Below, in pieces: positions 24,600-63,184 of a stretch of 64,000 bases of DNA; positions within the stretch are counted from its first letter, which is position 1; every line of letters starts with the position of its first letter. The DNA is from Candidatus Gastranaerophilales bacterium (GTDB taxonomy: Bacteria > Cyanobacteriota > Vampirovibrionia > Gastranaerophilales > Gastranaerophilaceae). The stretch covers positions 124,001 through 188,000 of the forward strand of contig CALVEM010000002.1 of NCBI GenBank assembly GCA_944326605.1. Reading direction: 5' to 3'. The position numbers were made by a program, and so were the translations under genes. The notes under the pieces are model-generated. The model was given only the letters and a program-made list of their open reading frames with translations. It made no database searches and was not told where the DNA came from.

Positions 24600-24621
24600 A
24601 AAATAAAAAAGGAGTTGGAAT

Positions 24622-25679
24622 ATGTTTTATAGAGAAGCTTTGAGTTGCCCCCCCCCCAACAGGATAAAGATGTAGCAAGGGATTACAGATTTTTAAAGTT
24701 AATACTGACGGATGTTAAGAAGTCCGGAGGGCTAGCTGTTATCATTAATAATTCATGCAAAACTCAGGTGTCGGATGGAACGGCTACGTTCCTCCCCTCC
24801 CTTGAGGGGAGGGGAAGTAAAGGGGTGGGTGAAAATATCCCCTCATCCGGCACAATGTGCCACCTTCTCCCACACAGGGGAGAAGGAATAAAGGAGATCC
24901 TGAAACGAGTTCAGCATGACATGTTTAACTTTCTGAAACGAACTTATTCACATATTCACTTATTTACTTATTCACATCGTAAACGCCCAGCATTTACTCT
25001 CGCAGAGGTCTTGATTACTCTCGGTATCATCGGTGTAGTGGCGGCAATGACTATGCCTGTGTTAATTCAGGGGTACACAGAGAAGGCTACGGTTGCAAAA
25101 TTAAAAAAAGTTTATTCAAATCTAAATAATGCTTTAATAATGAGTATCAATGAATACGGCGAGCTGAACGGCTGGGGGATTACATCAAGCGACATAGATA
25201 ATAAAGGGGCAGACTTAATCGCAAAACGCATCAAAGAATTTATGATTTCCGCAAAAGATTGTAATTTTGAAGGCGGATGCTTTGGAGAAGAAGCTTATAA
25301 AACTCTTGGACCCGCTAATGAAGCTTTTTTTGGACTTGCTACTAATTTTTCAACTCTTGTTTTATCAGACGGCGTTTCTATAGGCATCTGGGCAGGAGAC
25401 GGGAACAATTCTTACGGCAGCATCATAGTTGATTTAAACGGTAAGAAAAAACCAAATACAACAGGCAAAGATGCATTCTGGTTCCGCATCAAGGAACATT
25501 CAATAGTTCCTTACGGACTTCCGGAAGAGACAGGCAACAATACTTTTGAAAATTGCGTAAATCCTGTAAATTACTATTATACCTCACGTGGATGTACGGC
25601 ATGGGTTATATTTAACGAAAATATGGATTATCTTCATTGCAAAGACTTGAGCTGGGAGGGTAAGAAAGAATGCAAATAA
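24622..25679 (+). CDS. Prepilin-like protein, frame broken at a C10 tract (phase-variable candidate, OFF here)
   Basis: AAAGGAG and ATG 24622 begin an open frame that reaches C10 at 24648-24657 and stops at a TAG soon after. The prepilin frame is one base away: with C11 the ATG would read through to a 352-residue product. That product has a leader of about 110 residues made of dispersed repeats (pieces such as SGGLAVI, CKTQVSDGTATF, LPSLEGRG, EILKRVQHD), then HRKRPAFTLAEVLITLG with the hydrophobic N-helix, then a globular domain with KKKPNTTGKDAFWFRI and the end AWVIFNENMDYLHCKDLSW. Prepilin peptidase should cut before FTLAE and discard the leader. Internal TTG 24645 could in principle start the prepilin frame but has no Shine-Dalgarno. 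Confidence 0.85.
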
Positions 25680-30610: not shown

Positions 30611-31516
30611 ATGTCAAAAAAAATAAAACAGAAGCAGTTTGCAAAAGAAGCATTCAACTTATCCGAAGGCGCTGCGCACGTAGACACGCAGAACGATGAA
30701 AATTTATGCAAAACTCAAGTGTCGGGTGTAGCGGCTACGCTGCCCCCTCTCTCTAGCTCTCTCCCCAAAGGGGGGAGAGGGAAAAACGTTTCACCCTTCA
30801 CTCTTCGCACTTCACTAAAAAAGAAAACTGCCTTTACTCTGGCAGAAGTCCTTATCACACTCGGAATTATAGGTGTCGTGGCAGCGATGACTATGCCTGT
30901 GCTAGTTGCTAATCACAGAAAATCCGTTGTAGAAACAAGATTACAAAAATTTTATTCTGTAATGAATCAGGCAATTATACAATCAGAAATTGAGAACGGC
31001 GATAAAAGCACTTGGAATATAAACATGGAAGTTGATGGTGATTTTAATGATGTAGCCGATAATTTAGAATGGTATAATAAATATCTTGCAAAATATTTAA
31101 AAACTCTGAAAGTTGAAAAAAATTCTGATAACTATGTTATTGTATATTTCCCCGACGGAAGCGCTGTTATAATAAGACGTGGTGGAAGCACATACAACTT
31201 TTTCCCCGAAGCAAAACACCTTGGTAATTTAACTAAAGATGATATTTTTGATAATCAGAATAATCCGGATAATCCTCTGGCATATGGCAAAAATAATTTT
31301 TTCTTTGCATTTTATCCGAACTCAGATAATGAAAAGTGGAAATTTCATAAAGATAAAGGACTTGAGCCATATAAATGGATAAATGGATCAGTTGACAATA
31401 TAAGCTGGCGTAAGACTTCATACGGCTGCAGTGAAACAGGAAGTAAATTATATTGCACAGCACTTATTCAGGAAAACGGATGGAAAATTCCAAAAGATTA
31501 TCCAATCCGATTTTAA
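30611..31516 (+). CDS. Prepilin-like protein with repeat-built leader (intact)
   Basis: The start is ATG 30611, with GGAG 7 bases before it; an in-frame ATG at 30599 lacks a good site. A leader of about 70 residues contains EAFNLSEGAAHVDTQN, ENLCKTQVSGVAATLPP and LSSSLPKGGRGK, which are translated dispersed repeats. Then come KKKTAFTLAEVLITLG and the hydrophobic N-helix, with cleavage expected before FTLAE. The globular part ends NGWKIPKDYPIRF. The family motif VDxNGxKxPNxxGKD is not clear here. It has no poly-C tract and is fully open. It is divergent from the XRE gene at 30147. Confidence 0.85.
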   Translation: MSKKIKQKQFAKEAFNLSEGAAHVDTQNDENLCKTQVSGVAATLPPLSSSLPKGGRGKNVSPFTLRTSLKKKTAFTLAEVLITLGIIGVVAAMTMPVLVANHRKSVVETRLQKFYSVMNQAIIQSEIENGDKSTWNINMEVDGDFNDVADNLEWYNKYLAKYLKTLKVEKNSDNYVIVYFPDGSAVIIRRGGSTYNFFPEAKHLGNLTKDDIFDNQNNPDNPLAYGKNNFFFAFYPNSDNEKWKFHKDKGLEPYKWINGSVDNISWRKTSYGCSETGSKLYCTALIQENGWKIPKDYPIRF

Positions 31517-34685: not shown

Positions 34686-35978
34686 ATGATTGAAAGATAT
34701 TCACGAGATGAAATGGCAAAAATCTGGGATTTAGAATCTAAATTCCGCTATTATCTTAATGTCGAAATAGCTGTGGCAGAAGCTTACGCTGAACTCGGCA
34801 CTTTCCCGAAAGATGATATTGAAGAATTAAAAAAGAAAGCAAAATTCGACCTGAAAAGAATTGATGAAATTGAAGCCGAAGTCAAACACGATGTAATCGC
34901 GTTTTTGACCTGTGTTAATGAAAGTCTTGGCGACTTAGCAAAATATATGCATGTCGGAATGACAAGTTCTGACGTTATTGATACAGCTTTTGCTCTGCAA
35001 ATTCAGGACAGCGGGAAAATTATAATAAAAGATCTTGATGACACAATTCAATCAATGAAAAATTTGGCAAACAAACACAGGAATACTATTTGTATCGGAC
35101 GTTCACACGGTGTGCATGCCGAAGTTATGACATTCGGAGTAAAAGTTTGCAGCTGGATTGATATTCTTGAACGCCAGAGAGCAAATTTTATTCACGCACT
35201 TGATGAAATTAAAGTCGGACAAATATCAGGACCTGTCGGAACATACAGCAATATTCCGCCGGAAGTTGAAGAAATTACGTGCAAAAATTTAGGTTTAAGA
35301 CCTGCAAGAATTTCAACACAAATTATCGCAAGAGATTACCATGCATACTTTATGCAGTCTCTGGCTCTTATAGCAAGCGTAATAGAACAGTTTGCAACAG
35401 AAATCAGGCACCTGCAAAGGACAGAAGTTCTGGAAGTTGAAGAGGGCTTCGGCAAAAATCAAAAAGGTTCTTCTGCGATGCCTCATAAGAAAAATCCCGT
35501 ATTATCCGAAAACTTATGCGGGCTTGCGCGCGTTGTCAGAGCTAATTCAATTGTTGCGCTGGAAAATATCCCGCTCTGGCACGAAAGAGATATTTCACAC
35601 AGTTCCGCTGAGCGCATAATTTTTCCTGACAGCCTGACTTTAGTCGATTTTATGCTTAGCAGATTTAACGGAATTGTACAAAATCTCGTTGTCCATGAAA
35701 AAAATATGCTTAAAAATACAGATAAATTTGGCGGCATAGTTTTCTCTCAAAAAGTGCTTTTGAAACTTATAGAAAAAGGTTTGACAAGAGAAACTGCATA
35801 CCGTCTTGTTCAAAGAAACGCCATTGATGCCTTTGAAAATGACGGTGATTTCAGGGTTAACCTCCTCAATGACGAAGATATAACAAAACTTCTCACTCCT
35901 TTGGAGATTGATGAAATCTTCAGCAAAGAAGAATTTTTGAAGAATATTAATACAATATATTCAAGAATACTTAATTAA
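34686..35978 (+). CDS. purB: Adenylosuccinate lyase
   Basis: A 430-residue fumarase/aspartase superfamily enzyme. It splits adenylosuccinate (and SAICAR) to release fumarate in purine synthesis. GSSAMPHKKNP is the family signature loop with catalytic Ser; TSSDVIDTAFALQ and GRSHGVHAE carry other active-site residues. Its stop overlaps the convergent prepilin gene by 4 bases. It appears to be leaderless. Confidence 0.96.
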   Translation: MIERYSRDEMAKIWDLESKFRYYLNVEIAVAEAYAELGTFPKDDIEELKKKAKFDLKRIDEIEAEVKHDVIAFLTCVNESLGDLAKYMHVGMTSSDVIDTAFALQIQDSGKIIIKDLDDTIQSMKNLANKHRNTICIGRSHGVHAEVMTFGVKVCSWIDILERQRANFIHALDEIKVGQISGPVGTYSNIPPEVEEITCKNLGLRPARISTQIIARDYHAYFMQSLALIASVIEQFATEIRHLQRTEVLEVEEGFGKNQKGSSAMPHKKNPVLSENLCGLARVVRANSIVALENIPLWHERDISHSSAERIIFPDSLTLVDFMLSRFNGIVQNLVVHEKNMLKNTDKFGGIVFSQKVLLKLIEKGLTRETAYRLVQRNAIDAFENDGDFRVNLLNDEDITKLLTPLEIDEIFSKEEFLKNINTIYSRILN

Positions 35979-37023
35979 TCCTTGCAGCTTGTTGCTTTAT
36001 CCCAACCGAGTTTCTCAGGGCATCGCAAATAATCCATATTCTCGTTATATATAACCCATGCCGTGTAACCTTGATTACGCCCGAAAGTAACACCCGACTT
36101 ACCTTCCGGATCTCCAAAAGGAACAACTGTATTTTTTTCAAGTATAAAAGAAAAAAGATCTTTACCATCTTGATTAGGGCCTTTAAAACCGTTTATATCA
36201 ACAAATACTTTTCCCCGCGTTCCGAGACTTTCAATCGCAATTAATGTTCCGTCAGCAAGAATTAATTTATATGGACGTGTAGCGCTGTCAATTCCATACC
36301 ATGTAGTTCCGTCAAAATATTTATAGGTAACATTAGCCGGAAAACATCCTTTTTCAAAACCGCAATCTTTAGTAACTTTTAAATAAGGGATTAATTTTTC
36401 AGCAATGTTCTTTGCTCCTTCCTGTGACCATTTCTCACCTAATCCCCATTCTGTAATATTAATATTTTCAGAAGACGCAGACGTATAAGCCTGTGATAAT
36501 ATTGAGTAAGCTTTTTTTAAACGCGTAACAGTAACTTTTTCAGTGTTATTTTGCGTTAAAACAGGCATAGTCATAGCAGCAACCACACCTATAATACCGA
36601 GGGTGACTAAAACCTCTGCCAATGTAAAGGCACATTTCTTTAGACGATAGGACGTTAAGACGTTAGGACGATAAGTTCGTTTCAGGGTAGTGTGAAGAGA
36701 GAAGGGTGAAGCTTTTTTCCCACGCCCCTCAAGGGAGGGGAGGAACGTAGCCATTACATCCGACAAACAGGGACTGTATAAATTGTTCGGCTGGACTACG
36801 TGCGTAGCACCCTCCCTGATTAGGGAGGGTAAGGGTGGGTATTGATTGTTGTTACCCATCCTCTTATCCTTCCCTAACAAGGGAAGGAAGAGTTTATTGT
36901 TTTCGATACTTGCTTTGCATCTTCGCCTCTTTGCATCTTCGCATCTAATTGCGTCTTTGCCTCCGGAGAAGCCTAAAGTGCCCCCCCCCCGAAGCTCCGG
37001 AATAACTCATTTAATCTTTTCAT
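35975..37023 (-). CDS. Prepilin-like protein, frame broken at a G10 tract (phase-variable candidate, OFF here)
   Basis: ATG 37023 follows AGAGGAG. After 11 codons the strand enters G10 (C10 at 36981-36990 on the plus strand) and then meets TAG. One more G would put the ATG in the prepilin frame for a 349-residue product; I checked this frame and it is open. The leader of about 130 residues holds tandem GATGCGAAGATGCAAAG-type units, LPSLIREGATHV, LPSLEGRGK and RPNVLTSYRLKKC. Then comes AFTLAEVLVTLGIIGVV. The globular domain has DINGFKGPNQDGKDLFSFIL and ends AWVIYNENMDYLRC, like the prepilin at 24622. It has a good promoter with an inverted repeat over the -10. Confidence 0.85.
36902..36960. 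repeat. Tandem GCATCTTCGC-type short repeats
   Basis: Units such as TTGCATCTTCGCCTCTTTGCATCTTCGCATC run in tandem just downstream of the G10 tract. They are part of the prepilin leader if the frame is ON. Confidence 0.6.
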
Positions 37024-42357: not shown

Positions 42358-43118
42358 ATGTTAATAAATAAAGTCTCAGAAGTGCCCCCCCCCCGCAAAA
42401 CTCGCGTACGAGAAGGGCTTTCACGTTAGCCGAAGTTTTAATTACACTCGGGATTATTGGAGTCGTTGCGGCTATTACAATTCCTTCTGTTATAAATGAT
42501 GCGCAGGACAAACAGTATAAAGCTATGTTTAAAAAACAATATTCTGTCATTGCGCAAGCAATTCAACTGGTATACGCAAAAGAGAATACTTATATTACTC
42601 CGCAAACTGACGGCTGGGAAAAAATGCCTTACTATGTATGTGCAATAGGAAAAGAATTGAAATCAATCGGATCAGGCATAAAATGTGAAGTAATATCAAA
42701 CAGTCAGGATTACACTATTAATTCTATTCCTAAAAATAAAAATGTACACTGGCATAAAAATGAGGAATGGTTTGATAAAACAGGGAAACCATTGGCAATG
42801 AATGGTGGTGGAGCAGATGGATACGGACTTTTAACGTTTTTATTGCCTGACGGTGCATTAATAAATTTTAACTGTGGATATGAAGTCTTTATAGATGTAA
42901 ACGGATATAAAAAACCTAATACTGTCGGTAGAGATATATTTTATTTCTTTATAAAAGACAATCAATTTACACCTGTTTTCTGGACATCTGAACGAGGGAA
43001 TAATGTAAACGGATGCAGTGGCGCGGCTAACTGGACAACACTTACACCATATAACTATAAAGAGGATTGCGAAACAGGTTCGGGGTGGGGCTGCTCACCA
43101 GTATACATTATGGAATAA
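42358..43118 (+). CDS. Prepilin-like protein, frame broken at a C10 tract (phase-variable candidate, OFF here)
   Basis: A perfect AAAGGAGG (42343-42350) precedes ATG 42358. Nine codons later the frame meets C10 (42385-42394) and ends at TAG. The prepilin frame (RTRRAFTLAEVLITLG) is reached with C11, giving 253 residues with a short leader of about 20. The globular domain has DVNGYKKPNTVGRDIFYFFI, and the C-terminal end (YNYKEDCETGSGWGCSPVY) differs from the other prepilins. It lies at the end of the hydrogenase operon, so ON/OFF switching would not affect upstream genes. No other start serves the prepilin frame. Confidence 0.87.
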
Positions 43119-62023: not shown

Positions 62024-63184
62024 TTACCAAGGATAATCTTCACCTATCTGCCAGCCGTCCTGAACAATAACCTTTGCACATGCATAACCGCCTTTATCCG
62101 CATTTTTATTACACATGTGTAAAGTCGGTTGCAGACATTCATCTCCAATACAAGAGCCCGAAGGAGACAAACCGTTTGCCTTGTTAATCCAAAATGAAAA
62201 TAAATCTTTGCCGAGTACATTAGGTCTTTTATAACCGTTAATATCAACCATAATTGTTCTATAACTCCCGTCATCAGGAGTCCAGGAATCAACAAATATT
62301 ATTGACCCGTCTGCTAATTTTCTTACAGAAGTGTCTGTCCCATTTGCACTAAATTCTGTAATTGTTTGCCCGTTAAGATATTTATAATTAATAAGTGTGT
62401 TAATCTCTCTGCCTGATGTTTTGCCTATACTTTTTAAAAAAGGAACTATGTATTTTTCCACAAAAACATCTGAGGCTAAAGTTAAATCCCAGTATTCTAT
62501 TTCACCGTTTTCACTTTCTGAAAGTTTTACGGCTTGAGCAAGCTGTGAATAGGTCTTTTTCAATCCGGCTACAGTTACCTGTTTTTGATAGTTCGCGATT
62601 AAAGCAGGCATTGTTAAAGCAGCAACTACACCGATAATTCCTAAGGTTATCAAGACCTCAGCGAGTGTAAACGCTGCGCGTTTACGAGGTGAATAAGAAA
62701 ATAAGTTAATAAGTGAATAAGTTCGTTTCAAAAAGTTATTCTCGTCATCCTGAACTCGGTTCAGGATCTTTTTACCTACTCCCTCTCCTATGGGAGAGGG
62801 CTGGGGTGAGGGCTGATTTTCATTTTCACCCTCCCCTTTACTTCCCCTGTCTTGCTCACTCGCTAATAACGGGGCTGCAACGCCGCCGCCTTCGCGCCAC
62901 CGTTTCGCCCTCAGCTCGTTTGCGCTCCCCTCAAGGGAGGGGATATTTTCTTTTTGTCCTCTCGCCCCTTTGGGGAGAGAGTTAGAGTGAGGGGGCAGCG
63001 TAGCCGCTGCATCCGACACACCGATTTTGCATAAATTTTCAATGTCATGCACGGCTTGCGTAGCACCACCACTATAACATACTAAGGACTGACATGAATT
63101 GTTCTGCGTATCTACGTGCGTAGCACCTTCCGCCAGAGTAAATGCAGAATTTTTCATATTTTTATTATCAATCTGACACAGCAT
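62024..63184 (-). CDS. Prepilin-like protein with a very long repeat-built leader (intact)
   Basis: A 386-residue open frame. The start is fixed by TTGACA (63214-63219), 17 bases, TAAAAT (63191-63196) and ATG 6 bases on (leaderless). Residues 10-19 read MKNSAFTLAE, a first prepilin signal, cut by GATHVDTQNN. After it come about 140 residues of translated repeats (AAATLPPHSNSLPKGARGQ, NIPSLEGSANELRAKRWREG, QPSPQPSPIGEG, KKILNRVQDDE). Then a second, complete signal KRAAFTLAEVLITLG with its hydrophobic helix. The globular domain has DINGYKRPNVLGKDLFSFWI and ends DGWQIGEDYPW. It is divergent from the XRE gene at 63279. Confidence 0.87.
   Translation of the reverse strand: MLCQIDNKNMKNSAFTLAEGATHVDTQNNSCQSLVCYSGGATQAVHDIENLCKIGVSDAAATLPPHSNSLPKGARGQKENIPSLEGSANELRAKRWREGGGVAAPLLASEQDRGSKGEGENENQPSPQPSPIGEGVGKKILNRVQDDENNFLKRTYSLINLFSYSPRKRAAFTLAEVLITLGIIGVVAALTMPALIANYQKQVTVAGLKKTYSQLAQAVKLSESENGEIEYWDLTLASDVFVEKYIVPFLKSIGKTSGREINTLINYKYLNGQTITEFSANGTDTSVRKLADGSIIFVDSWTPDDGSYRTIMVDINGYKRPNVLGKDLFSFWINKANGLSPSGSCIGDECLQPTLHMCNKNADKGGYACAKVIVQDGWQIGEDYPW

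Follow-up and report, generated by a model that had tools for sequence, protein, structure and literature searches.

Homopolymeric tracts and a proposed default-OFF switch of prepilin genes in Candidatus Gastranaerophilales

Introduction

Why should a prepilin gene possess a start codon and a Shine-Dalgarno sequence and then be thrown out of frame, by a single base, at a run of exactly ten C residues? The gene in question (positions 24622 to 25679) lies in a 64,000-nucleotide stretch of DNA from Candidatus Gastranaerophilales, the whole of which is referred to here as the window. A preliminary description of the gene proposed that it encodes a phase-variable, pilin-like surface protein. The analysis presented here examines the reading frames of the gene, the recurrence of its tract across the genome and in related genomes, and the orientation of such tracts on the chromosome. 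The best explanation, favoured with considerable confidence, is phase variation by slipped-strand mispairing in which OFF is the default state maintained by selection; there are no reads, clones or expression data, and switching itself is inferred.

Reading frames of the window gene

The Shine-Dalgarno sequence, the ATG and the C10 tract are all present as first described, as is the stop that closes the ATG frame early (Table 1). From upstream of the tract to a stop of its own at 25677-25679, the prepilin frame is uninterrupted. As the preliminary description predicted, C11 or C8 restores this frame to the ATG, and C14 does so too; the C11 version encodes a product of 352 residues. A working start downstream of the tract would have refuted the phase-variable reading, and none was found at this gene: an in-frame ATG at 24921 has no Shine-Dalgarno sequence at a usable distance.

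Table 1. Features of the switch gene and of the other tract prepilins in the window
Feature	Position	Strand	Basis or remark
Shine-Dalgarno AGGAG	24610..24614	+	Sequence; 7 bases upstream of ATG
ATG and OFF frame, 17 codons, stop TAG 24673-24675	24622..24675	+	At present tract length
C10 tract, proposed switch	24648..24657	+	ATG and prepilin frames joined at 11, 8 or 14
Post-tract leader extension from dispersed repeats	24658..24992	+	Open in prepilin frame
Prepilin: FTLAEV processing motif, hydrophobic helix, globular domain, stop 25677-25679	24993..25679	+	Pfam, TIGRFAM, fold model
Third tract prepilin	35975..37023	-	ATG 37023, G10 at 36990-36981, one base short
Second tract prepilin	42358..43118	+	ATG 42358, C10 at 42385-42394, one base short

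Three other prepilins with 10-base tracts had been counted in the window; there are only two (tracts at 36981-36990 and 42385-42394), and the one-base offset claimed for them holds at both. The tract of the gene at 35975..37023 has the opposite sense relative to its gene, and the identical sense on the chromosome, when compared with that of the 24622 gene. Prepilins near about 30818, 48709 and 62612 are without 10-base tracts. The window contains no C/G runs of length 7-9 and only three longer ones, each of exactly 10 bases; that such tracts exceed chance expectation is borne out by dinucleotide shuffles, which predict 0.19 C8 matches where the window has nine (overlapping ones, all within its three C10 runs).

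Identity of the product and its leader

The protein from position 24921 onward, used as the query, carries the prepilin motif above the Pfam cut-off (N_methyl, PF07963, 24.1 bits), and the match to TIGR02532 is likewise above cut-off. The structure model (pLDDT 80.5) has a long N-terminal helix (residues 27-79) and a small strand-rich domain in a pilin-like fold. VIA-align ranks type IV pilins highest, at Z scores of only 3-4.5, and the best Foldseek match is the gonococcal pilin at an E value of 0.13; Foldseek alone gives no significant match against the PDB. The product is best described as a type IV-type prepilin whose predicted structural likeness to type IV pilins is weak. It shares with type IV prepilins the FTLAEV processing motif and the long N-terminal helix; its best structural matches, though weak, are pilins. 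It differs from them in a leader with a homopolymer and an extension derived from repeats, and in a globular domain for which no Pfam family was matched. An A24_N_bact prepilin peptidase is found once in the genome, which also contains T2SSE-family ATPases.

The leaders that precede the processing site, at 100-240 residues, are of unusual length. Dispersed repeats of the CCTCCCTTGAGGGGAG and GTGCTACGCACGTAGA types occur in prepilin leaders of the window at 24658-24992, 30640-30820 and 62700-63150. At two of these places, near 63130 and near 30650, the repeat has an FTLAEG-like copy on its 5' side and the true FTLAEV on its 3' side, which looks, from sequence alone, as if the repeat had been inserted at the motif and had duplicated it. 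No sign of purifying selection was seen on the leader extension: paralogues differ about equally at all three codon positions, and most gaps between them do not have a length divisible by three, so that only the openness of the frame is kept.

Tract prepilins across the genome

The assembly of this genome comprises 2.05 Mb in 26 contigs and contains 109 N_methyl prepilins, about 70 of which have a C/G tract, mostly of exactly C10. There are 89 tracts of C8 or longer. Among the runs of at least 7 in the stretches fetched from this genome, one each has length 7, 8, 12 and 16, two have length 11, ten have length 9, and 74 of the 90 are exactly C10. Of the 71 prepilins with a tract no more than 800 nt upstream, 69 have no stop in the prepilin frame between tract and motif. 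Where tract and motif are separated by at least 150 nt (n=50), the prepilin frame is open in 48/50 and either other frame in 0/50, which indicates that the frame crossing the tract is kept open. No in-frame start with a Shine-Dalgarno sequence was found between tract and motif in the 69 tract prepilins; 5 of 15 tractless prepilins have one.

These frames bear on the idea that out-of-frame prepilins are unexpressed cassettes that recombine into an expression locus, the tract and the 5' repeats serving as shared homology. Prepilins that are otherwise unlike one another do indeed have 5' modules in common, and 5' ends differ within a single family. Each tract gene, however, has its own ATG and nearly all have a Shine-Dalgarno sequence; the extension is open in the prepilin frame in nearly all cases and in neither other frame; and in-frame C11 and C8 copies occur at separate loci rather than at one. 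Such a silent reservoir is considered very unlikely.

Several irregular loci accompany this repertoire. Two tract prepilins (C1:119731 and C7:79279) have a frame broken between tract and motif and are possible pseudogenes. In the same genome, tracts lie near contig ends at C5:152250, C7:5, C7:111174, C8:80, C18:49305 and C20:26274, where the prepilin 5' repeats have probably interrupted the assembly and left some genes truncated. The locus designated L213 has, at 20-104, five C tracts in the roughly 90 bases that precede a prepilin, with lengths of 11-23 bases. The 5' module was also looked for in viral contigs, with the tract allowed to vary in length, and gave no match.

The modal tract length leaves prepilins out of frame

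The frame relation was determined for every tract with an upstream ATG and Shine-Dalgarno sequence, which resolved 68 prepilin tracts of this genome and 45 from the same genus. A few of the 45 loci are from outside the genus, or are loci of this genome fetched twice with differing edges; the picture is unchanged. The length that joins ATG and prepilin frame (the ON length) is 2 mod 3 in 108 of the 113 resolved tracts, and C10 prepilin copies are out of frame in 90 of 91 cases. The 113 tracts include both senses (poly-Pro or poly-Gly leaders), all three ATG-to-tract phases and 58 leader clusters, and for this reason the rule does not reflect one ancestral frame that was copied. Nominal probabilities for the rule assume that genes are independent and hence are too small; counts by cluster point the same way.

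Intact prepilin genes also occur at other lengths in the combined set, namely C9 (12 copies), C11 (6 copies), C8 and C13, a change of length in the DNA itself. Most of those with C9 fall two bases short, and those with C11 join the two frames. About 6% of the genus sample has an ON length, 8 or 11. C10 prepilins that are in frame are exceptions, one in this genome (C1:252243, absent from the frame-rule set because of its weak Shine-Dalgarno sequence) and one in a relative (L137).

All tract lengths given here are those of assembly consensus sequences, which hide length variants within a population. Could a true C11 have been undercalled throughout by sequencing or assembly? Homopolymers are error-prone and some contigs do end at tracts, yet the six non-prepilin C10 genes of this genome (two GT2, a GT8-methyltransferase, a radical SAM, an AAA/M41 peptidase and a TrbI-like gene), all of which would be frameshifted by such an error, are in frame as called. 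Tract lengths are thus not systematically undercalled, and the default OFF state belongs to the prepilins. Independently assembled genomes, apparently the work of different assemblers to judge from their contig names, show this geometry as well, and C11 is readily called elsewhere. An artefact of this kind is scarcely credible.

Relatives and other lineages

The window locus is matched in all 33 same-genus genomes. Most of these contain many exact copies of the motif GC10GA (up to 115 per genome), which is rare in the family's other genera. Genes of the same family as the window prepilin, 69-77% identical to it, occur in four species; strict orthology has not been established by synteny. The relative in G033 has G11 and is in frame (ON), with its sense opposite to that of the window gene; those in G001 and G003 have G10 (OFF), and the one in G038 has no tract. 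The variation in length among intact genes (C8-C13; G10 versus G11) is thus observed between loci or species and not between strains, and no second strain of the species was found in the collections searched.

Two genomes of other lineages, G041 and G045 (the latter Candidatus Scatousia excrementigallinarum), were reached via prepilin relatives. Their modal tract is C11 and their ON residue is 1 mod 3; C11 prepilins are OFF in 33 of 33 cases, and three C10 copies flanked by G are in frame. Default OFF has therefore persisted while length and frame both changed. In G042, two of eight copies are in frame. That genome also contains two tract families with different modal lengths, G-C10-T and A-C12/13-G.

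Homopolymers are known slippage sites. Together with the uniform C10 and its uniform one-base offset across the genus, this lends some support to a programmed frameshift, in which C10/G10 is a fixed recoding site and the pilin is made by RNA polymerase slippage (+1 nt) or by -1 ribosomal frameshifting. Such recoding requires a constant direction and site length, and neither holds: frames are no less intact in genes at C9 (two bases short) or at C11 (in frame), and the modal C11 of G041 and G045 would need the opposite shift, which speaks against it. Poly-C and poly-G senses would both need the same recoding, and the six other C10 genes are read straight through in frame. A programmed frameshift is improbable on these grounds. 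Phase variation of a pilin, as proposed in the preliminary description, agrees with every comparison that was carried out and is supported by the frame geometry of the 113 prepilins, the length variants, the G11 relative and the in-frame controls; in the absence of reads, switching has not been observed directly.

Tract orientation and replication

Along any one contig the tracts keep a single orientation with few flips, and the canonical G-Cn-G tracts of G030, G007 and G039 have few switch points per genome. At the flip on contig C1 of G007, GC skew passes from negative to positive and tRNA direction changes (origin-like); the flip on C2 coincides with the reverse change of skew and tRNA direction. 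Most stretches of the window's own genome agree with a fixed orientation. Judged by these markers, the G-run is on the leading strand regardless of gene direction, and the sense of the tract within the gene follows from this (22 C and 46 G among the prepilins of this genome). The DNA flanks are also conserved: G precedes 72 of 74 C10 tracts, and G or A follows, then mostly A. The GC10GA motif read backwards is nearly absent.

Proposed mechanism

At C10, a ribosome starting at ATG 24622 would terminate after 17 codons, and the gene would be OFF. Slipped-strand mispairing would occasionally yield C9 and C11, and the gain of one base at replication, giving C11 (C8 or C14 would be equivalent), would join the ATG to the prepilin frame and turn the gene ON. 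Because a prepilin peptidase is present, a cleaved leader would make all ON lengths equivalent, with the same mature pilin released from each; this cleavage is inferred and untested. Prepilin frames are set one step from the usual length, with mode+1 ON in the genus and mode-1 ON in the two other-lineage genomes. With about 70 such switches, each cell would express a small, random and heritable subset of pilins. Change of tract length within a population, arrival of ON pilins at the surface, and a benefit in adhesion or in phage/immune diversity are inferred.

A fuller model, for which belief and doubt are about evenly balanced, may be described as a pilin lottery. A lineage-specific tract length would be held by a process dependent on the replication strand, and the frame offset would set the odds of expression, with prepilins rarely ON, glycosyltransferases and others usually ON, and each cell displaying a few pilins drawn at random from a repertoire of about 70. 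In Campylobacter jejuni, polyG tracts gain bases at 8-9 and lose them at 10-11 (PMC8224891 Table 2), and at such rates lengths should cluster narrowly and 11 should be rare. A gain/loss balance computed with these rates peaks at 9, with length 11 at about 3%; here the peak is at 10. Reported Campylobacter tract lengths are 53% at 9 and 26% at 10 (PMC6321876). C10 is held more narrowly than this, a point against slippage as a complete account, since ordinary slippage alone need not give such narrowness.

Comparison with known systems

In Neisseria, poly-C or poly-G tracts near the 5' ends of genes switch surface and pilus-associated proteins; such loci are few per genome, and pilin variety arises by recombination with silent copies. 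The position of the homopolymer near the 5' end of a gene for a surface or pilus protein is alike in Gastranaerophilales, which would differ in having tens of separately switched prepilins in place of silent-copy recombination. The closer likeness is to the Campylobacter jejuni phasome, in which homopolymers of 8-12 G/C within reading frames undergo one-base slips that turn surface-structure genes ON or OFF at many loci (PMC6321876, PMC4965091, PMC8224891). Gastranaerophilales differ from Campylobacter in that one gene type (prepilins) and one length dominate, and in that the modal length is OFF in nearly every copy, whereas the ON share of tracts in draft Campylobacter genomes is reported to be near neutral drift (PMC6321876). 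The leading-strand-fixed G-run with conserved G..GA flanks is a further feature of Gastranaerophilales; strand behaviour in Campylobacter was not compared. Campylobacter-like polyG switching is thus already known, and the default-OFF rule, the held length and the replication-locked orientation are new here. In the one open-access literature collection searched, no paper joining Gastranaerophilales and phase variation was found, nor was default-off switching at such scale found described for the group.

Implications

If the interpretation is true, a very large phase-variable repertoire of a single type exists in these cyanobacterial relatives from the gut, a group in which the cell surface has received little study. 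Gene callers working from consensus assemblies are predicted to miss or truncate most pilins here. Ordinary metagenomic reads could test the mechanism at about 70 loci simultaneously, and, because tract orientation is locked to the strand, the effect of replication on homopolymer slippage can be examined in a natural setting. Prepilins that are OFF and other genes that are ON at the same modal length would show selection on the default state of a switch.
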